Below, piece after piece: positions 17,476 to 26,932 of a DNA stretch of 64,000 bases (within the stretch, counting starts at the first letter, position 1; each line of letters opens with the position of its first letter). The notes under the pieces were generated by a model. The model saw only the letters and a list, made by a program, of their open reading frames with translations. It made no database searches and was not told the DNA's origin. The translations under genes were made by a program, and so were the position numbers. Source of the DNA: an uncultured Myxococcales bacterium (lineage in GTDB: Bacteria; Myxococcota_A; UBA9042; DTJE01); contig CAIZWN010000044.1 of NCBI GenBank assembly GCA_903936705.1, positions 124,001 to 188,000 of the forward strand, given 5' to 3'.

Positions 17476-17604
17476 GGAAACTCCACTCAAGCTTCAAGGG
17501 CAGCGTAGCAGACCGGCCTTCCGGGTGCCAACCCCGAGGCTTGCCTGCAATTGCCTGTCCAAGTGGCCGGCGCGGCGCAAGTACCCCCCTTTGCACTGCC
17601 CGGC

Positions 17605-17633
17605 TTGCAATCGCAGTTCCCGATGCCGATAAT
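17605..17633 (+). promoter_or_regulatory. Predicted promoter for the Mla-like operon
   Basis: TTGCAA at 17605-17610, a 17-base spacer and GATAAT at 17628-17633. The predicted start near 17640 lies just before the GGAGG (17646-17650) of the first gene. Confidence 0.5.
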
Positions 17634-17657
17634 GCGCCCGCCCATGGAGGTCATCGT

Positions 17658-18098
17658 TTGAAGATTGCGATTCCATCCGATGACGGTATTCACGTGGCCC
17701 CCAGGTTCTGGCGCGTGTCGTCGTTCATCGTTGCAGATGTCGATGCCGGCTGTATCCTGGCAACGGAAAGTCGTCGCAACCTGCCGCGTCTCTCGAAGTT
17801 TCCCCGCATGCGTCCGGATCCGTGGCGTGACCGCTACCGTGCGGTGGCCGACGTTGTCGCGGACTGCCGCACCGTCATCGCCGGTTCGATCGGAGATACG
17901 ATGCGCCGCGCATTGACCCGACGCGGGATCGAGGTCGTCATCACCTCCGAGGAATACGTCGATCGTGCGCTGGCCTTGTTCGCGTTGCTGCTGTTGAGGG
18001 ACGAGTCGCGCATCGACCCCGAGGACGCCGAGATCGCCGAGGTGGCCGAGTCGGTCGGGCAGCCCGCCGCCACTCTCGAAGACGAGTTTGACGCCTGA
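17658..18098 (+). CDS. NifX/NafY-like (DIMN-fold) small protein heading the lipid-transport operon
   Basis: 146 residues. The start is a TTG at 17658 with GGAGG seven bases upstream; the upstream in-frame ATG at 17541 would add unrelated residues. The first strand KIAIPSDDG, then HVAPRFWRVSSFIVADV, and later CRTVIAGSIGDTMRRALTRRGIEVVITSEE give the pattern of the dinitrogenase iron-molybdenum-cofactor-binding fold (PF02579: strand, helix, strand, G-x-G-like turn, helix, strand V-x-x-T). A helical acidic tail follows. Nothing else in the window concerns nitrogenase, so nitrogen fixation is not implied. Its stop overlaps the next start by one base (TGATG), tying it to the ABC genes. Function unknown. 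Confidence 0.65.
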   Translation: MKIAIPSDDGIHVAPRFWRVSSFIVADVDAGCILATESRRNLPRLSKFPRMRPDPWRDRYRAVADVVADCRTVIAGSIGDTMRRALTRRGIEVVITSEEYVDRALALFALLLLRDESRIDPEDAEIAEVAESVGQPAATLEDEFDA

Positions 18099-18862
18099 TG
18101 ACGGAGGGAGGGGCCGTGGAAGCCGCCGCCGAACTCCAGTCCATCGTCAAGACCCTCTCCGGCACCCGTGTTCTTGAAGGCGTCAGCCTTTCCCTGGCGC
18201 GAGGGCGAGTCCATGCCCTGGTGGGCCCAGGCGGGTCCGGGAAAACTCTGATTCTGAAGACCCTTTGCACGCTGCTTCCTCCGGATGATGGCAAAGTTGT
18301 GCTGTTCGGCGAACAGGTGAATTTCGACGATCAGGATGGCCTGCGACACCTGCGCTCACGAATCGGGGTCCAGTTCCAGAATTTGGCTCTATTCGATTTT
18401 CTGGCTGTCAGGGACAACGTTGCCTTCCCCCTAGAAGCTGGCACGTCGGTTCGCCCCAAGGTCGAGGTCGATGGACTCGTCCAGTCGATTCTGGACGACG
18501 TGCGTCTGCACGACAGCGGGACATTGGAGATCCAGGAGCTTTCCGGGGGAATGCAGCGCCGCGTCGCGGTTGCGCGAGCTGCCGTGTCCGACGCCGACCT
18601 GCTGGTCTTTGACGACCCCTCGGGCGGGCTTGACCCCGTCACCACCTCGCGTATCTTCGCCCTGATCGCAGGCATACACGCATCCCGAGGCAACACTGTG
18701 ATTATCGTCTCGCACGACATCGACAGGCTTGCGCGGGTGTGTTCGGACTTTCACGTAGTCGATTCGGGCCAGGTTATTTTCAGCGGAACGCTGGCCGATG
18801 GACGAGTCCATCCCGACATGCGGGTTCGCACTTTCCTGGATGTGCCAGATGAACGGCCTTAG
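18098..18862 (+). CDS. Mla-like ABC ATPase, first half (canonical signature, Asp in place of catalytic Glu)
   Basis: 254-residue ATP-binding subunit of MlaF type. Walker A GPGGSGKT at 43-50, Q-loop Gln94, signature LSGGM at 148-152, H-loop His206. The Walker B strand reads LLVFDDP, so the residue after the Walker Asp, normally the catalytic Glu, is Asp173. Family knowledge: MlaF is normally a homodimer with both sites intact. Here a second, different ATPase lies three genes on, and this subunit appears to give the good signature but a weak catalytic base. It overlaps the next gene by 14 bases. Confidence 0.9.
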   Translation: MTEGGAVEAAAELQSIVKTLSGTRVLEGVSLSLARGRVHALVGPGGSGKTLILKTLCTLLPPDDGKVVLFGEQVNFDDQDGLRHLRSRIGVQFQNLALFDFLAVRDNVAFPLEAGTSVRPKVEVDGLVQSILDDVRLHDSGTLEIQELSGGMQRRVAVARAAVSDADLLVFDDPSGGLDPVTTSRIFALIAGIHASRGNTVIIVSHDIDRLARVCSDFHVVDSGQVIFSGTLADGRVHPDMRVRTFLDVPDERP

Positions 18863-19682
18863 GAAAAATGCCGGTGTTCTGCGCCGAGTCCTCGATCTGC
18901 TGGACCACGCAATAGCCTTGCCCGCTCGCCCACTGGGGCGTGGAGTCCTGCATGCTTGCGAGATTGTCGGGGGAATGTCGGTTCTGCAGATCGACATCCT
19001 GCGCGCCATGGTTCCGCCGTCGTTCGACTACGATGAGACTCTCAGTCAGCTGCACAAGGTTGGCGTCCGGTCCTTGCCGGTAGTCACTTTGACGGCGTTC
19101 TTCGTGGGCGCGTTGATGCTGATCCAGACGGGTAATTTCGTGCGCTCGACCGGCGCGACCGCGATGGTTGGCTGGGCGACCGGACTTTCCATTTTTGCCG
19201 AGGTCGGACCGGTCCTGATCGGCCTGATGTTCAGCGGTCGTGTTGGCGCCAACAACACGGCAGAACTTGGCACCATGACCATCACCGAGCAGGTAGACGC
19301 GCTGCGGGTATTGGGGATCGATCCGATTCGTTACCTCGTCGTGCCACGGTTCATCTCGATGATTCTGATGCTGTTCCTGTTGACATGCATCGGAGACCTG
19401 TGCGCCATAATCGGGGCCGCGTTAGCCTGTCAGGCCATACTGGGTATCGATATTCGCGTTTTCTGGCAGGGGTTGGTGCAGGGGCACCTGCTGGGCGAAT
19501 TCGTCATGGGTCTTGTCAAGGGCACCTTGTTCGGTGGCGCGGTTGCCATCGTTTCATGCCACTGGGGGCTGCGCGTCCAAGGTGGCGCCGTTGGCGTGGG
19601 CCGATCGGTCAACAATTCGGTCGTCACATCAGCCATTGCGATTTTCGTCGTCAATTTCCTGGTGACCACGTTGTGGATGTGA
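18849..19682 (+). CDS. MlaE-type lipid ABC permease, first copy
   Basis: 277-residue inner-membrane permease of the MlaE/PF02405 family. Hallmarks: VGVRSLPVVTLTAFFVGALM, EVGPVLIGLMFSGRVG, AELGTMTITEQVDALRVLGI and DPIRYLVVPRF. MlaE subunits line the lipid path of the MlaFEDB complex that moves phospholipids between inner membrane and the MCE ring. The start chosen is the ATG at 18849 (MNGLRKN), minimising overlap with the ATPase. It is followed four bases later by a second, clearly different MlaE-like gene. Confidence 0.92.
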   Translation: MNGLRKNAGVLRRVLDLLDHAIALPARPLGRGVLHACEIVGGMSVLQIDILRAMVPPSFDYDETLSQLHKVGVRSLPVVTLTAFFVGALMLIQTGNFVRSTGATAMVGWATGLSIFAEVGPVLIGLMFSGRVGANNTAELGTMTITEQVDALRVLGIDPIRYLVVPRFISMILMLFLLTCIGDLCAIIGAALACQAILGIDIRVFWQGLVQGHLLGEFVMGLVKGTLFGGAVAIVSCHWGLRVQGGAVGVGRSVNNSVVTSAIAIFVVNFLVTTLWM

Positions 19683-19686
19683 GGAA

Positions 19687-20484
19687 ATGGTTTTGAGAAC
19701 CCAGGCGCAGACAACTCCCGGACATGCACGCCTGGCATGGTTTCGCCTGCCTGCATTGGTCCGGGAACCTCTGCTGCTTCTGGGTCGCGTGGTCCGGGGC
19801 ATCCTGCATAATCCTCCGCCGCGCGATCGCGTTCTGACCCAGATGCACAATGTCGGCATCCGATCGCTGGTGTTCATATCGATTACCCTGGGGTTTCTTG
19901 GGTTGATTCTGGTCTATCAGGGTTGCGTGCAGACGCTGAAGGTACTTCCGGATCTGTCGGGCGTGGGCCAGGTGTTCATCTACGCAATGTGGCGCAGCTT
20001 CGGGCCAACGATTACGGCACTGATGCTGGCCACACGTGTTGGCGCCGGCATTGCAGCCGAAATTGGTTCCATGACCGTTACCGACCAGATCGAGGCCATG
20101 AAGGTTGCGAATGCCGACCCGGTCGAATACATCCTCGGCCCACGTTTCATTGCGTGCGTTGTCATGACGCCAGTCCTTTGGGTAGTTGGGGCAATGGTCG
20201 GCATCGCGGCCGGCTATTTCATGGGACATCTGCACTTCGGGATCTCGACGCGGGCTTTTCTGGACCTGTCCAGCACGCACGTCTCGGACGTTGTCGTCGG
20301 CTACATCAAGGCACAGACTTACGGCGTCGTAATCCCGATCCTGTCAGCCGAGTCGGGTTTTCGTGCTCAGGGCGGATCCGAGGGCGTGGGCTGGGCCACC
20401 ACAAGGGCTGTGGTCAACTCGTCTTTTGCAGTGATCACTCTTGATTTCTTGATTTCCACATCGGCGTTCCTATTGGGGTATTGA
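19687..20484 (+). CDS. MlaE-type lipid ABC permease, second copy
   Basis: 265-residue permease of the same family as its neighbour (VGIRSLVFISITLGFLGLIL, ALMLATRVGAGIAAEIGSMT, DQIEAMKVANADPVEYILGP, RAQGGSEGVGWATTRAVV). Sequence differs throughout from the first copy, so this is an old duplication or a heterodimer partner rather than a recent tandem copy. Known MlaE acts as a homodimer; two genes each beside an ATPase suggest a heterodimeric membrane core here. Confidence 0.92.
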   Translation: MVLRTQAQTTPGHARLAWFRLPALVREPLLLLGRVVRGILHNPPPRDRVLTQMHNVGIRSLVFISITLGFLGLILVYQGCVQTLKVLPDLSGVGQVFIYAMWRSFGPTITALMLATRVGAGIAAEIGSMTVTDQIEAMKVANADPVEYILGPRFIACVVMTPVLWVVGAMVGIAAGYFMGHLHFGISTRAFLDLSSTHVSDVVVGYIKAQTYGVVIPILSAESGFRAQGGSEGVGWATTRAVVNSSFAVITLDFLISTSAFLLGY

Positions 20485-20511
20485 TTCCAGGCCCTTTGCG
20501 GGGAAGCGGCC

Positions 20512-21255
20512 GTGATCGTGTTCGAAGGGATAAGAAAGGCCTTCGGCGACAAGCTTGTCCTTGAGGGCGTGGACCTTTCCATAAATGACCGGGAGATCAC
20601 GTACATCATTGGCGCGTCCGGCACCGGAAAGAGCGTCCTGATGAAATCGGCGGTGGGCATCCTGGTGCCCGACTCAGGTCGGATCATCGTTGACGGCATC
20701 GATGTAACCGGCTTTTCCGAGGCGCGCTGGCAACCAGTTCGCACCCGGTATGCCATGGTGTTCCAGCATCCCAATCTGTTTGACAGCATGACTCTTCGCG
20801 AGAACGTCGCACTACCCCTGCGCAAACACAGGCGGATTTCGCGAAAACTGGCGCTTGACGCGGCCCTCGAATTCCTGCGGATGGTCCTGATGCAGGACAA
20901 GGCCGACCTGATGCCATCCGAGGTCGGCCCATCCGAGCGCAAGCGTGTCTCGATCGCCCGCGCCCTGACGCTGGACCCGGATTGCGCCATACTCGACGAA
21001 CCAACTACCGGGCTGGATGTCGTTGCCAGTCGAACGATAGACGACTTGATCCAACGCCTGGCCCACGAACTTGGCAAGACGGTGGTTGTCGTTTCGCACG
21101 ACCTGCGTTCCATCTTCGGCGTTGCTGATCGCATCGTTTTTCTATATAAGGGGCGCGTCCACCTTGATGGCCAGCCTGAGGTGTTTCGCAACTCGCGGGA
21201 CCCGGTCGTACGGCAGTTCATCGGGGGGGAGCCCGACGGCCCTATGGAGACCTGA
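20512..21255 (+). CDS. Mla-like ABC ATPase, second half (catalytic Glu present, degenerate signature)
   Basis: 247 residues, GTG start at 20512. Walker A GASGTGKS at 34-41, Q-loop Gln85, Walker B CAILDE with the catalytic Glu163, H-loop His196. The signature motif is lost: where MlaF reads PSELSGGMRKR this protein reads PSEVGPSERKR (residues 135-145). The mismatch replaces the serine and glycines that contact ATP in the opposite subunit. Paired with the ATPase at 18098 this gives one good and one dead composite site. The C-terminal tail VFRNSRDPVVRQFIGGEPDGP is typical of MlaF. Confidence 0.9.
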   Translation: MIVFEGIRKAFGDKLVLEGVDLSINDREITYIIGASGTGKSVLMKSAVGILVPDSGRIIVDGIDVTGFSEARWQPVRTRYAMVFQHPNLFDSMTLRENVALPLRKHRRISRKLALDAALEFLRMVLMQDKADLMPSEVGPSERKRVSIARALTLDPDCAILDEPTTGLDVVASRTIDDLIQRLAHELGKTVVVVSHDLRSIFGVADRIVFLYKGRVHLDGQPEVFRNSRDPVVRQFIGGEPDGPMET

Positions 21256-21258
21256 TTC

Positions 21259-22251
21259 ATGGCCGAACGTGCCAAAGCGCTGGAGGTCAAGGTCGGCGGG
21301 TTGATCCTTGCCGCCGTCCTTCTGCTGGTCGCATTTCTGATCTTGCTAGGCGATTTCCAGTGCAACGAGCGCGTGTCGGTCCTGGTGGACTTCCCGACAT
21401 CTGCCGACCTGAAGATTGGCGCTCCCGTCAAGGTAAGCGGCGTCACCGTTGGCAGGGTGGCGCAGGTCGATTTGTGGGGAGGCAGACAGGATCCGGCAAA
21501 CGGGAATCGTCTGGTTGGCGTCCGGATCACTCTTGTGGTGGACCGTACCGCAGCCGATCTCCTGCTGTCGGACGCAACCTTCCGCATTACGACCCTGGGG
21601 ATCCTTGGCGAAAAATACGTGGAAATTCAACCGGGAACCCCTGATGGCAAGCCGGTGGCCATAGGTCAGATATTCGTCGGTGTCGGGCCCATGAGTCTTG
21701 ATGCCGTCGGCTCGGACGCCTCGTCCCTTGTGACCGACATGTCGATTCTGGTTCGAGAGAATCGCCAAAGCCTGCGGGAGTCACTGGACGGAATCAACCG
21801 CCTGGTCGGCCATGTTGATGAAGTGATAGTCGAGAACCGTCCGGTGATCCGATCGGCCGTAGGGAACATTGAACGACTGTCAAAGGGGCTCGTCGAATCA
21901 ACCCGGGACGGGGTCGAGGTACGTGACACGCTGGTTGCGATCCGGACGCTGGCCGAGCGCCTCGACCGCGGCATTGCACCGACTCTGGCCGAGTTGCCTG
22001 GAGCGGTTCGCCGGATTGACCAGTTGGCAGCGCAGGGAACCACGCTGGCCACTGAACTGCTGACAGTCGTGGCGGGCGTCCGCCCCGAGATTCTGGCGGT
22101 CCTGGCAAACATCAAGGTGCTGTCCCAGAACCTGCGCGATGGAAGGGGAAGCGTCGGAGCCCTTCTGTCGGACCGCGAGGTTTACGACGACATCATCTCC
22201 CTATTGAAGGACGTGAAACGCCATCCGTGGAAACTGCTTCTGAAAGACTGA
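21259..22251 (+). CDS. MlaD-like MCE-domain lipid-binding protein
   Basis: 330 residues: an N-terminal membrane anchor (LILAAVLLLVAFLILLG), then one MCE domain (SVLVDFPTSADLKIGAPVKV, GVTVGRVAQV, ITTLGILGEKYVEI), then a long helical region (about residues 145-310, heptad-like hydrophobics with RENRQSLRESLDGINRL) and a positively charged end. MCE proteins form hexameric rings carrying lipids across the periplasm; the helices probably extend the tunnel as in PqiB or LetB tail regions. It lies three bases after the second ATPase. Confidence 0.92.
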   Translation: MAERAKALEVKVGGLILAAVLLLVAFLILLGDFQCNERVSVLVDFPTSADLKIGAPVKVSGVTVGRVAQVDLWGGRQDPANGNRLVGVRITLVVDRTAADLLLSDATFRITTLGILGEKYVEIQPGTPDGKPVAIGQIFVGVGPMSLDAVGSDASSLVTDMSILVRENRQSLRESLDGINRLVGHVDEVIVENRPVIRSAVGNIERLSKGLVESTRDGVEVRDTLVAIRTLAERLDRGIAPTLAELPGAVRRIDQLAAQGTTLATELLTVVAGVRPEILAVLANIKVLSQNLRDGRGSVGALLSDREVYDDIISLLKDVKRHPWKLLLKD

Positions 22252-22958
22252 GATTGCGGCCCAGCGCGGGGCTGGAGTCTGCCAAGCGTGTTGCTTGCGT
22301 GACCTGCGTCGTGCTTTCCATTGCCATGACCTTTCGGCCCTCCCCTTCCCTTGCTGCTGATGACGCAGAAAGGTTCAATCGGGCCATGTTGGCGCTGTCA
22401 GAGGCAGACTCAAGGTTTCGAGAAGGACGATTGGCCGTGGCGATGTCAGGCTATTCCGAACTCCTGCGCGAATTCCCAACGTGGTGGTTGCCAACGCTGA
22501 AGACGGCGGTTGTCGCAAAGGCGCTGGGCCAGTCGACCGAGTCCGTTTTGGCGCGGATTGGCCTTGCCAGAAACCTGTCGCCATCGGGTACGTACCTTCC
22601 CCTGGTTGAAAGTCTTCTGCTTTCCGGGGTGCCACGGGATCCTTCTCGTGTCGAAGGTGCAGCGCCGTCACTGCCGGATCCTCTGGCGGACCGCATGGCC
22701 CTGCTGCGCGCCGGTCGTCTTGCTGCCGAGGGGCGCCGCGACGAAAGTGAAGCCGAATACCGGTCCATTCTCGCCCGCAATCCAGGGGTCCTGGTGGCTC
22801 GTTGGAAACTGGCCCGAATTCTGGTCGAGTCGGGACGGACTGGCGAGGCTGCCGCATTTCTCCACGAAGGCGCCGGTCGCAGCGCTTTTTCGGCTCGCTG
22901 GCGGTCGGAAGCCTTGTCCCAGGAGCATTCAAACAGGGATGATACGGGTACAAAGTGA
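22227..22958 (+). CDS. Helical-repeat (TPR-like) exported protein
   Basis: 243 residues, overlapping the MCE gene by 25 bases. An N-terminal hydrophobic segment ends near LAADDAE, a likely signal peptide or anchor. The rest forms TPR-like helix pairs (SRFREGRLAVAMSGYSELLREF, LAAEGRRDESEAEYRSILARNP). The coupled position at the end of the lipid-transport operon suggests a periplasmic adaptor, in place of the MlaC or MlaB seen elsewhere, but that is inference. Confidence 0.75.
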   Translation: METASERLRLRPSAGLESAKRVACVTCVVLSIAMTFRPSPSLAADDAERFNRAMLALSEADSRFREGRLAVAMSGYSELLREFPTWWLPTLKTAVVAKALGQSTESVLARIGLARNLSPSGTYLPLVESLLLSGVPRDPSRVEGAAPSLPDPLADRMALLRAGRLAAEGRRDESEAEYRSILARNPGVLVARWKLARILVESGRTGEAAAFLHEGAGRSAFSARWRSEALSQEHSNRDDTGTK

Positions 22959-23049: not shown

Positions 23050-23096
23050 ACGGACGGTCTTGGACCCGGGCGCCTCTTCGATTGCGAGGGCTGGAG

Positions 23097-24857
23097 ATGC
23101 TGATTGGCCTCCTGATTGCGTTGGTCGGAGTACTGGTTGGACTTGTCGGTGCGTTCACGGTGCCCTGGGTTGACCAGGACGTCGTGAAATTCTCCGACCC
23201 CAGCTTGTACCAGGGCTGGCAATGGTGGACCGGTGCGGTAGCCATTGCGTTGATGGGCGTCATCCTTGTGTGCGTCGTGACCGGCTTCGTCGTTCACCGC
23301 AAGAAACTGCTGGGGACGCTGGGCCTGGTGGCTGCGCTGGGCACGTTCATCTTTTTGATGGTAGTGCCATTCACGATCCGTTCTTCCATCGTCCAGATGA
23401 TCGGCCTGCAGCTTCTTCCGCCCACTACACAAATCGCGATGTACTACGGCTATCACGCGATGTTCCTGGGCATGATTGTCGCGGTCATCGGCCTGATCTG
23501 GACGTTGTCGGCCGAGCCGCTCCTTGGCCCGGACGATCGTCTCCTTCGTGTTGCCCTTCTGTGGGGCGGCCGGATGGTCAAGGAGACCACCTTTACCGAA
23601 CGTCATGACATCACCATTGGTGACGGCACCCGCTGCGATTTCATCGTGCCGTCTGCCGAGGTTGGCAAGTCCCTTTCGCTGTTCAAGGTCGATCGCAAGG
23701 GTACGTACTCGGTTGCCCTGAACCGCGATTTCACAGGGCGCGTCAACCTTGAAGGCGTACTGGCGCCGGTTCGCGAGTTCGTCAAGAAGCACACATCGGA
23801 CCAGGCCGGCCTGAATTACGTGAAGGTCGGCAAGGGCGACTGGGGTGTTCTGGAATTCGGCAACCTCGAGTTGTTCTTCCAGTTCGTGCGACCCGACGTA
23901 ATTGTGGGGCGCAGCACGGCGATGTCGATGGACGGCAACTTCGTGGCGTCCAGTTTCGGATCCTTGTTCTTCCTGATGTCCATGTGGGTCGTTGCCCAGT
24001 TTGCCTGGGACCCGGCTGGCAAAATCGAACAGCGCAAGGCCGAGAAGCGCATGATGAAGGTCGAGACCAACATCACCCTCGAGAAGGACGAAGCGCTGCT
24101 GGAAATCGGCGAAGAGGACGATTCGGTTGGCAAGAAGGCCGAAGGCGAGGAAGGCAAGTTCGGAGATCCTGACAAGGATCCCGACCTCGAGAGCAAGGTT
24201 CCCAAGCGCGACGGCGCACTGGCGGCAAAGATCGACCCGAAGAAAATCGGTTTGGCTGACCTGCTTTCAAACAAGATGGGCAAGTCCGGCGCGATTTCGT
24301 CGATCCTCAGCGACAACGCCGATGCATTCGACAACCGCATGGCAGTTGCGATGGCCGGCACCGGTTCCGAGTTGGTCGTCGGCTATGGCGCCGGCGGCAT
24401 GGGATTCAAGGGCACAGGTTCGGGTGGCGGCGGCACCGGCGGTTACGGGCGCATCCACGGCCTGGGCCGCGTCGATACCGGCGGTGGCATGGGCATGCGC
24501 GCCGGTCTTGGCAAAAAGGGCGTCAAGGCTGTCGGCAAGATGGCGATGGGCGGCATGGGCGCCACTGGTTTCTGCCAGAAGAACAACATACAAACGGTCG
24601 TGATGCAGCGCTCCGGCGCCATACGCGCCTGCTATGAAGCGCAGTTGCAGATTCACGAAGCATTGACTGGCAAGATCACATTCCGCTGGACGATCGACAC
24701 CGAGGGGCGCGTCAGCGATGCCAGCATGACCGATTCCAGCATCGGCAATACGGCAGTCGAACAGTGCGTCCTGCGCACCATTCGCAACATGCGGTTTGCG
24801 AAGCCGGAAGGCGGCATCTGTGTAGTACAGTGGCCGTTCGTGTTCAACCCTGGTTGA
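23097..24857 (+). CDS. AgmX/PglI-type envelope motor protein with TonB-like C-terminus
   Basis: 586 residues. Four N-terminal membrane helices (about 1-25, 43-67, 71-94, 113-137); a cytoplasmic-type domain (about 145-268: HDITIGDGTRCDFIVPS...LFKVDR) of the kind found in myxobacterial AgmX proteins; a fifth helix (285-304); a charged segment (309-372); a Gly-rich stretch (about 430-490); and a TonB-like periplasmic C-terminus (about 500-586) with GAIRACYEAQL, GKITFRWTIDTEGRVSDA and conserved cysteines. In Myxococcus xanthus AgmX/GltJ works with the AglRQS motor; TolQ/TolR-like genes follow here too. The ATG at 23097 has GAGGG and GGAG just upstream; the TTG at 23082 is less likely. Confidence 0.88.
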   Translation: MLIGLLIALVGVLVGLVGAFTVPWVDQDVVKFSDPSLYQGWQWWTGAVAIALMGVILVCVVTGFVVHRKKLLGTLGLVAALGTFIFLMVVPFTIRSSIVQMIGLQLLPPTTQIAMYYGYHAMFLGMIVAVIGLIWTLSAEPLLGPDDRLLRVALLWGGRMVKETTFTERHDITIGDGTRCDFIVPSAEVGKSLSLFKVDRKGTYSVALNRDFTGRVNLEGVLAPVREFVKKHTSDQAGLNYVKVGKGDWGVLEFGNLELFFQFVRPDVIVGRSTAMSMDGNFVASSFGSLFFLMSMWVVAQFAWDPAGKIEQRKAEKRMMKVETNITLEKDEALLEIGEEDDSVGKKAEGEEGKFGDPDKDPDLESKVPKRDGALAAKIDPKKIGLADLLSNKMGKSGAISSILSDNADAFDNRMAVAMAGTGSELVVGYGAGGMGFKGTGSGGGGTGGYGRIHGLGRVDTGGGMGMRAGLGKKGVKAVGKMAMGGMGATGFCQKNNIQTVVMQRSGAIRACYEAQLQIHEALTGKITFRWTIDTEGRVSDASMTDSSIGNTAVEQCVLRTIRNMRFAKPEGGICVVQWPFVFNPG

Positions 24858-24937
24858 TCGAGTCTCCCCCCGGTTTGACGCCATCCGGCGAACACCGGGC
24901 GCCCGCGTTGTATATCGCGCAGGCGCGGTTTTAAAAG

Positions 24938-24966
24938 TTGACACTGGTCGGGGCGGCTGATATACG
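24938..24966 (+). promoter_or_regulatory. Strong predicted promoter for the TolQ/TolR-like operon
   Basis: A perfect TTGACA at 24938-24943, 17-base spacer and TATACG at 24961-24966. A second, weaker pair follows: TTGACC at 24970-24975 and TAAGGT at 24993-24998, also 17 apart. Both would serve the gene at 25087. Confidence 0.6.
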
Positions 24967-25086
24967 TCTTGACCTTGGCGCGGGCCTCTAGTAAGGTCCA
25001 TGCCACATGTTCCTTACCGTTTGGGAGGGTCCCCCGGACATCGACGGGGCATCAGGTTCGAGACAACAACGAGGAGGGGTACAGCA

Positions 25087-25749
25087 ATGTTCGAGTTCAT
25101 CGCTAAGGCGTTCGACAAGGGCGGCCCGAACATGTACGTCATTTTGGCAACGTCCGTGTTCATGTTCGGCGTTATCATCGAGCGCCTCGTAGTTCTGTAC
25201 TTCCAGTCGAATGTTGACAAGGAAGGTTTTACCCGCGTCCTGACGAAGTACATCCTCGTCGGCGACCTGCGAAACGCCCTGAAGCTGTGCTCGATCTCCA
25301 AGTTCCCGCTGGCCAAGGTGCTGCAGGCTGGCCTGATGAAGGCCAAGGATTCCGACTCGGCAGTCCAGGCTTCCATGGACGAGGCTGCTCTCCGCGAGCT
25401 GCCCCGCATCGAGAAGCGCATCGGCTTCCTCGCCGTTATCGGCAACGCAGCCGTGCTCATGGGTCTGTTGGGCACCATCTTCGGTCTGATCAAGTCGTTC
25501 AGCGCAGTGGCCGAGGCTGATGCCTCTTCCAAGGCGACCGAACTGGCGGCCGGTATTTCCGAAGCCATGTACAACACGGCCTTCGGTCTTGCAGTCGCCA
25601 TTGCCTCGTCCATTGCCTACGCAGTGTTCCAGGCAAAGTCCCAGCAGCTTGTTGACGACATCAACGAGACGACCGTCTCCGTTCTGAACCTGATCACGGC
25701 CAATCGTGACAAGTTCGAGAACGAGAAGGGCGGGCGTTCGGCAGACTGA
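25087..25749 (+). CDS. TolQ/ExbB/AglR-type proton-channel subunit
   Basis: 220 residues. MotA/TolQ/ExbB family: N-terminal membrane helix (YVILATSVFMFGVIIERLVV), cytoplasmic helical loop, and the conserved IGNAAVLMGLLGTIFGLIKSF and ALAAGISEAMYNTAFGLAVA-like helices. The family forms a pentameric channel that uses the proton gradient to drive partner proteins. The start at 25087 has GAGGAGGGG just upstream. Followed by two TolR-like genes and preceded by an AgmX-like gene, the order seen for Agl/Glt gliding motors and for other Tol-type envelope machines; its job here is not settled. Confidence 0.92.
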   Translation: MFEFIAKAFDKGGPNMYVILATSVFMFGVIIERLVVLYFQSNVDKEGFTRVLTKYILVGDLRNALKLCSISKFPLAKVLQAGLMKAKDSDSAVQASMDEAALRELPRIEKRIGFLAVIGNAAVLMGLLGTIFGLIKSFSAVAEADASSKATELAAGISEAMYNTAFGLAVAIASSIAYAVFQAKSQQLVDDINETTVSVLNLITANRDKFENEKGGRSAD

Positions 25750-25821
25750 GGTATCTGGACGGCCGTTCCCCATCGGTCGGGGTGACCCGATCGGGTTTGT
25801 GGACGGCGTCAGGAGGCTACG

Positions 25822-26298
25822 ATGAGCGGGCCCCAGGAAATCGGCGGCAAAGGCGGAAAAAAGTCCCTGAACGTGAGCCTGAATCTGGTTCCGTTCATCG
25901 ACCTGATGTCCGTCTGCGTTACCTTCCTGCTCATGACGGCCGTTTGGACCCAGACTGGACGCATCAGCGTTGACCAGTCGGTTCAGAAGCCTCAGAAGCA
26001 GCAGCAGACCGAGCCTCCAAAGCGTCTGACGGTCCTCCTGGACAAGGCGGGTTACACCGTCAAGTTCTCGGATGGCCAGCCCGAACCGATCCCGATGGTC
26101 AGCGGCAAGTACGATACCGTTGCCCTCAAGAAGAAGCTCGAGGATCTCAAGCTCCCGAAGGACCAGAAGGTCGTCGTGGCGCCCGAGGATACCGTCGCGT
26201 ACACGGACATGATCACTGCGATGGACTCCTGCATGATTCTTGGGCTTGTGAACGTTGTGGTCGCGGATGCTACATCCGTGGCTGGCGAAATGATGTGA
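25822..26298 (+). CDS. TolR/ExbD-type motor subunit, first copy
   Basis: 158 residues with the one-helix topology of ExbD/TolR. The helix LVPFIDLMSVCVTFLLMTA carries the conserved proton-path Asp near residue 31. A Gln-rich linker (KPQKQQQTEPPK) leads to the periplasmic domain ending AYTDMITAMDSCMILGLVNVV, the usual D-x-x-x-x-x-M-D-x-x pattern. Start ATG with AGGAGG upstream. Two TolR-like genes after a TolQ gene match AglR-AglQ-AglS architecture. Confidence 0.92.
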   Translation: MSGPQEIGGKGGKKSLNVSLNLVPFIDLMSVCVTFLLMTAVWTQTGRISVDQSVQKPQKQQQTEPPKRLTVLLDKAGYTVKFSDGQPEPIPMVSGKYDTVALKKKLEDLKLPKDQKVVVAPEDTVAYTDMITAMDSCMILGLVNVVVADATSVAGEMM

Positions 26299-26350
26299 TG
26301 TCGCGGATTTCCGGGTGTTCGTGACCCGGAACGCGGCTTGAGGAGGACCT

Positions 26351-26932
26351 ATGGCCATCAAGGCGCCCGGAAGCCGGATCGGCTCGAGCGTTCACATGAA
26401 GGGCTTGAAGGTTGGCGGCAAGGGTAATCGCCGGACAATGCTCTTCGATTTGAACCTGACGCCCATGATCGACATGTTTTCGATCCTGGTCGTTTTCCTC
26501 CTGATTACGTTCTCGGCGACAGGCGATATTCTTCTGCAGCAGAAGGACATCCAGTTGCCAATGGCGTACTCGGGTCGAATGCTCGAACGCGTTCCGATGA
26601 TCGGTATCTCGGCGGCCTCGCTTGTCTTCGAGGGCGACGAGGTCATGAAGACGCCATGGGTCACCGAAAAGAACTACCCGGACCTCAAGCTCCCCGAGCT
26701 GTCGAAGGTCCTCAAGGCCGCTCGTGACAACTACGAGCGCCTCCACCCAATGCCCTCCGATCAGGAGAAGGCAAACAAGTGGCTTGAGGAGTCCAAGCAG
26801 GTTGTAATCCAGGCCGACGAGCAGACCAAGTTCGAGGTCATCCGCCTGGTAATGACCACCGCCGCGATCGAAGGCTATTCGGCCATCAACTTCGCGATCA
26901 AGAAGAAGGGCAAGGAAGAACCGGCAACCTGA
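26351..26932 (+). CDS. TolR/ExbD-type motor subunit, second copy
   Basis: 193 residues. The transmembrane helix LTPMIDMFSILVVFLLITFS contains the conserved Asp. The periplasmic domain is longer than usual, with an inserted helical segment of about 35 residues (around 115-150: KVLKAARDNYERLHPMPSDQEKANK) before the terminal EVIRLVMTTAAIEGYSAINF. ATG with GGAGG upstream. Differs from the first copy along its length, so the two probably form a heterodimer in the motor. Confidence 0.9.
   Translation: MAIKAPGSRIGSSVHMKGLKVGGKGNRRTMLFDLNLTPMIDMFSILVVFLLITFSATGDILLQQKDIQLPMAYSGRMLERVPMIGISAASLVFEGDEVMKTPWVTEKNYPDLKLPELSKVLKAARDNYERLHPMPSDQEKANKWLEESKQVVIQADEQTKFEVIRLVMTTAAIEGYSAINFAIKKKGKEEPAT

Follow-up and report, generated by a model that had tools for sequence, protein, structure and literature searches.

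How can an Mla-type lipid transporter run on two ATPases of which neither carries a complete set of catalytic motifs? The question is raised by five genes on the + strand of the window (the whole 64,000-nucleotide stretch analysed, from an uncultured Myxococcales bacterium), which follow one another in the order N1, P1, P2, N2 and MCE gene with tight spacing and some overlaps. These genes, the relevant motifs of their products and the adjoining downstream gene are:

18098..18862, +, N1, MlaF-like ATPase of 254 aa with an intact signature and a degenerate Walker half
18224..18247, +, N1 Walker A GPGGSGKT (residues 43-50), intact
18539..18553, +, N1 signature LSGGM (residues 148-152), intact
18614..18616, +, N1 Asp173, where MlaF has the catalytic Glu (E170), by alignment
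18713..18715, +, N1 H-loop His206, kept here and replaced by Ser in the clade that retains Glu
18849..19682, +, P1, MlaE-type permease (likely start 18849; the longest ORF begins at 18798)
19687..20484, +, P2, second MlaE-type permease, unlike P1 (Pfam MlaE)
20512..21255, +, N2, MlaF-like ATPase of 247 aa with an intact Walker half and a degenerate signature
20923..20937, +, N2 VGPSE (residues 138-142) at the place of LSGGM, by alignment
20998..21000, +, N2 catalytic Glu163, intact, by alignment
21097..21099, +, N2 H-loop His196, intact, by motif reading
21259..22251, +, MCE protein of 330 aa (Pfam MlaD/MCE)
22227..22958, +, TPR protein; overlaps the MCE gene if translated from its first possible start

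The cluster and the motifs of its ATPases

The original prediction of two MlaF-like ATPases, two MlaE-like permeases and one MCE protein agrees with the family matches. PF02405 (MlaE) matches P1 and P2 with E values of 4e-69 and 8e-57, PF02470 (MlaD/MCE) matches the MCE protein (E 2e-15), and the top-scoring named NCBIfam for both N1 and N2 is MlaF, but under the equivalog cut-off. Translation of P1 probably begins at 18849 rather than 18798, which places its first 14 bases within N1. Across all five genes dN/dS is 0.10-0.28; pseudogene decay is ruled out by these values together with the intact reading frames.

N1 and N2 share 32-34% identity with E. coli MlaF, and the permeases 31-32% with MlaE. 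In an alignment with E. coli K-12 MlaF (the row L272:8883-9650, out of frame, was left out), D173 of N1 and E163 of N2 occupy the column of E170, and VGPSE of N2 falls in the column of LSGGM. The alignment concurs with the residues and coordinates originally read for both ATPases, LSGGM (148-152) with Asp173 in N1 and Glu163 with VGPSE (138-142) in N2. In E. coli, MlaF carrying the E170Q substitution does not complement (PMC7367683). The intact Walker A motif of N1 is expected to bind ATP. The C-terminal handshake extension, which stabilises the E. coli MlaF homodimer (PMC7367683), is absent from both N1 and N2 in this alignment, and we count its absence as a feature that would favour a heterodimer.

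The MCE protein is predicted to consist of an N-terminal transmembrane helix, a single MCE domain (about 38-142) and a long helical region, and a conserved KDxKRHPWKLL motif lies at its C-terminus. This motif (22180-22248), in its longer form KDxKRHPWKLLxK, is strongly conserved after the predicted helical region and closes the MCE proteins of 21 aligned relatives. A structural model (pLDDT 60 over the whole chain, mostly 80-90 in the MCE domain and of low confidence in the helical part) gives fold matches to MlaD and Mce1 chains, with the Mce1 chains best. Two further MCE genes occur in the same genome, both away from the cluster, and this one is the sole MCE gene beside N1, N2, P1 and P2 in the window.

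Several neighbouring genes are also of note. The gene upstream (17541-18098, +) encodes a dinitrogenase iron-molybdenum cofactor (NifX/NifB C-terminal-like) domain protein, and the overlap of its stop codon with the N1 start suggests translational coupling. The TPR protein at 22227..22958 is a possible accessory of the transporter; TPR proteins also adjoin P2 at one related locus (L277) and precede N1 at another (L281). Just downstream (23082-26932, +) are genes for an AgmX/GltG-like protein with a TonB-type C-terminus and then for ExbB/MotA-type and ExbD-type proteins, which resemble parts of gliding (Glt/Agl) or TonB-like energising machinery.

Conservation and co-occurrence in Myxococcota

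A contig search with N2 alone returned only close relatives and unrelated ATPases. Relatives were found by profile searches across the phylum, with the permease P2 as the guide, and more than 100 loci were read, giving sets of 98 N1 and 100 N2 sequences from Myxococcota genomes, with each N1 from a different genome. Both signature glycines of N1 are invariant (98/98). The Walker half of N1 combines Asp at the Glu position with an unchanged His in 59 of the 98 sequences, Glu with Ser in place of the H-loop His in 38, and Asp with Gln in one; none of the 98 holds both Glu and His. At the place of MlaF E170, the residue is Asp in 60/98 and Glu in 38/98. The substitution of Asp for Glu that had been noted at this locus holds for 59 relatives with His and one with Gln, and gives way in one large clade to the change of the H-loop His to Ser. 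The Ser form thus damages the same functional half as the Asp form through another residue. The rest of this half is kept, with the Walker A Lys in 97/98 and the Q-loop Gln and D-loop Asp in all.

The pattern in N2 is the mirror image. All 100 sequences retain the Lys of Walker A, the Gln of the Q-loop, the Glu and the H-loop His. At the third position of the signature (the first Gly of LSGG) none of them has Gly: 82 have Asp, 12 Pro and 3 Ala, and the others Ser, Gln or Ile. In all, the N2 signature takes 20 forms among the 100 sequences. All 95 genomes that hold both ATPases combine one degenerate and one consensus composite site. This fits the logic of the original prediction, in which a heterodimer would join the good halves in one composite site and the bad halves in the other, and the co-occurrence of both changes in relatives, on which that prediction had staked itself beforehand, holds without exception. 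The 13 other MlaF-like ATPases met alongside have LSGG, Glu and His all intact; set against these, 95 of 95 genomes indicate that the complementary split is not due to chance. The pattern of one dead site is a conserved property of the system across the Myxococcota phylum.

Two details of these alignments stand apart. One N1, L061 (genome G013), is alone in carrying the two lesions together, with Asp at the Glu position and Gln replacing the H-loop His. In 24 genomes the D-loop of N2 reads TTSLDP, exclusively together with Ser in the N1 H-loop (for example L132-L134, L146 and L148). The two loops may be in contact across the interface; the pairing is confined to one clade and was therefore left out as evidence.

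Sequences were assigned to N1 or N2 with profiles of the whole domain. With the motif columns masked and with cross-validation by genome, these sorted 98/98 N1 and 100/100 N2 sequences correctly. In a tree built without the motif columns, a branch with SH-aLRT 99 separates the N2 sequences as a whole from the rest, and the N1 sequences group together save for one long-branched exception, with all Glu/Ser forms as a single clade inside N1 (SH-aLRT 92). The tree points to few independent events, namely one ancestral asymmetry and one exchange of the N1 lesion. As such events are few, the weight of the argument lies in long maintenance: N1 identity falls to 31-40% while the asymmetry is maintained.

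Presence was counted at fixed thresholds over 379 Myxococcota genomes, of which 154 hold P2, 149 N2 and 135 N1. Correlations uncorrected for relatedness are high for P2 with N2 (143 genomes with both, phi 0.91), N1 with N2 (132, phi 0.89) and P2 with N1 (130, phi 0.84). The N1 threshold is strict, and five genomes scored as lacking N1 do have it (G007, G008, G028, G317 and G352); two others (G041 and G047), with incomplete assemblies, have no detectable N1. Three genomes of family f46 (G177, G251 and G366) depart from the pattern and speak against it: they encode a P2-like permease (E about 1e-80), and neither N1 nor N2 reaches the thresholds applied, which possibly reflects a divergent or a symmetric variant. 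An N2 profile run over 398 genomes centred on a Burkholderiales genome gave no match at E 1e-86, which weakly suggests that the system is absent outside Myxococcota.

Gene order in relatives, which the original prediction had proposed as a check, is most often N1-P1-P2-N2 (55 loci). In family f6 the set is scattered as N1+P1, P2 alone and N2+MCE, yet complete, and N1 is separated from the remaining genes in some other families as well. The set is still complete in a genome where N1 is about 514 kb from N2 (G340).

A proposed one-engine transporter and its alternatives

The two ATP sites of an ABC dimer are composite: for each, one subunit supplies the Walker, Q-loop and H-loop motifs and its partner the signature (PMC7756269). 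An N1:N1 or N2:N2 homodimer would consequently have no consensus site. On the evidence observed directly (motifs, conservation, co-occurrence, gene order and the fold-level match of the MCE protein), we consider it very probable that the products of the five genes form a single, obligately heteromeric ABC lipid transporter of the MCE class (Mla-type, type VIII), with the composition N1:N2/P1:P2 and one catalytic site. P1 would pair with P2 above a head-to-tail N1:N2 dimer, and six copies of the single MCE protein would probably form a ring topped by a helical needle. The site built from the N2 Walker motifs and the LSGGM of N1 would be of the consensus type, hydrolysing ATP and powering the step that moves the presumed lipid cargo. 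The site built from the N1 Walker motifs and the N2 signature would be degenerate; it should still bind ATP, because N1 keeps its Walker A, Q-loop and D-loop, and the nucleotide would stay occluded there with turnover dead or slow. Asp in place of Glu can leave slow hydrolysis in other transporters (PMC7756269), a point that we count against the scheme.

The dispersed gene orders would also suit a pair of independent homodimeric transporters, one of N1 and P1 and the other of N2 and P2, that share or alternate on one MCE ring: family f6 keeps P1 with N1 and leaves P2 by itself and MCE with N2, and elsewhere N1 stands apart from the rest. Each such homodimer, however, would have two defective sites, since the Walker half is crippled in N1:N1 and the signature in N2:N2, and the lesions are complementary in every one of the 95 genomes. 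P2, N1 and N2 moreover tend to come and go jointly, and the window holds a single MCE gene, the other two of the genome being elsewhere. We regard separate homodimers as very unlikely. Even less credible is the proposal that one of the ATPases acts as a non-catalytic regulator outside the dimer, with a homodimer of its counterpart, or of a separate MlaF, as the motor. Further MlaF-like ATPases are indeed encoded in the genome, and the motifs are intact in one or more of them (L087), but the other MlaF genes adjoin MlaE and MCE genes of their own (L087) or an MCE gene (contig C22). An invariant N1 signature would be useless outside a dimer with another ATPase, and the Walker and H-loop residues of N2 are likewise invariant. 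Neither ATPase alone builds a full site.

A further alternative predicts the same complex and differs over the origin of its dead site, which would have drifted by neutral decay because one site was enough. The N2 signature, with its many variants, behaves as such loose constraint predicts. N1 does not: its lesion is restricted to two residues, its Walker A Lys, Q-loop Gln and D-loop Asp are retained almost or entirely without loss, and the Glu-bearing clade has Ser for His in every member. The confined lesion, the kept motifs and the Glu/Ser clade together look like a maintained ATP-binding site that does not hydrolyse. Return of the degenerate site to consensus impairs function in several other transporters of this kind (PMC7756269). 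Neutral decay, like the separate homodimers, strikes us as very unlikely. That the second site of the N1:N2 heterodimer is held dead by selection, which would make these systems a phylum-wide Myxococcota class with a single catalytic site by design, is likely in our judgement; this reading draws on the occurrence of Asp/His in one clade and Glu/Ser in the other, with neither holding both residues among 98 sequences. The system is real, old within the phylum and conserved, and is best read as a one-engine MCE transporter.

Comparison with known transporters

The cluster shows the hallmarks of MCE/Mla-type (type VIII) transporters: an MlaE-family permease, a co-encoded MCE protein and an MlaF-like ATPase. 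With the MlaFEDB complexes of E. coli, P. aeruginosa and A. baumannii, also of type VIII, it shares the MlaF-like ATPase, the MlaE-fold permease and a single MCE-domain protein. It differs from them in having two unlike ATPases and two unlike permeases rather than homodimers, in the complementary degenerate motifs, in the long helical region of its MCE protein and in the lack of the C-terminal handshake extension. A homodimer with two identical sites, as in the six-part Mla pathway (MlaABCDEF), is not what the sequences predict, neither ATPase having the full motifs. No gene for MlaB or MlaC was found within the cluster, PF04333 (MlaA) had no match in the 96%-complete genome in which controls matched, and the one MlaC-family gene of that genome lies on another contig (C57). 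The absence of a match to MlaA and the distant location of the MlaC gene identify the cluster as MCE/Mla-type and not as the six-part Mla pathway. A similarly minimal core with a long MCE protein and no MlaA, MlaB or MlaC genes in the cluster is found in Veillonella parvula MlaEFD; that system, however, has a single MlaE and MlaF modelled as 2:2:6, and its MlaD ends in an outer-membrane barrel, whereas none is predicted for the 330-aa MCE protein here (PMC10665443).

Mycobacterial Mce1 shares a heterodimeric permease pair (YrbE1A/YrbE1B) and an MCE domain followed by a long helix. In M. smegmatis, these permeases sit on a homodimeric ATPase, MceG, and Mce1 combines this one ATPase with six different MCE proteins (Mce1A-F), where the present cluster has two ATPases and one MCE gene (PMC9882608). 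The ATPases themselves resemble those of heterodimeric exporters with a degenerate site (TAP1/2, TM287/288 and BmrCD, and the full-length CFTR), in which one half has the signature lesion, the other half a lesion at the Walker B Glu, the H-loop His or both, and one site is of the consensus type (PMC7756269). The original prediction had recognised this split for TAP, TM287/288 and CFTR. A review of the human set describes matching lesions: signature changes are universal, Glu to Asp is next commonest and H-loop changes also occur (PMC7756269). By sequence, the present ATPases carry the changes that define this group, in the signature of 100/100 N2 and at Glu or His of 98/98 N1. In those systems the ATPase is fused to membrane domains of the exporter type, whereas a separate MlaE-type membrane part and an MCE protein are present here.

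A broad survey of Mla systems describes, for the Gracilicutes half of the bacterial tree, several events of duplication and transfer; its main text mentions neither Myxococcota by that name nor heterodimers (PMC10665443). No MCE transporter whose ATPases are heterodimeric or unequal, or that has a degenerate site, emerged from our full-text literature search, which was of incomplete coverage. The asymmetry had been put forward as undescribed; within that search this stands for the ATPases, and the unlike permeases have a precedent in Mce1 (PMC9882608).

If the proposed single-site design is correct, lipid transfer through the MCE ring would be driven by an asymmetric power stroke, unlike that of MlaFEDB, and the design with one dead site would extend to a membrane fold unlike those of the exporters studied previously. 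For the symmetric E. coli MCE complex, the coupling of ATP to lipid movement and the direction of transport are disputed. With one live site and with distinguishable permeases and ATPases, the two halves of the present system could be mutated separately, and the two alternative residues that do the disabling constitute a natural experiment.

Elsewhere in the same genome, a conserved MlaE permease (L086, G000:C83:161999-162634; relatives L088, L090, L093, L095 and L098) has no recognisable MlaF or MCE neighbour. Contig C22 carries an MlaF-like ATPase and an MCE gene without MlaE, and these possibly partner the L086 permease.
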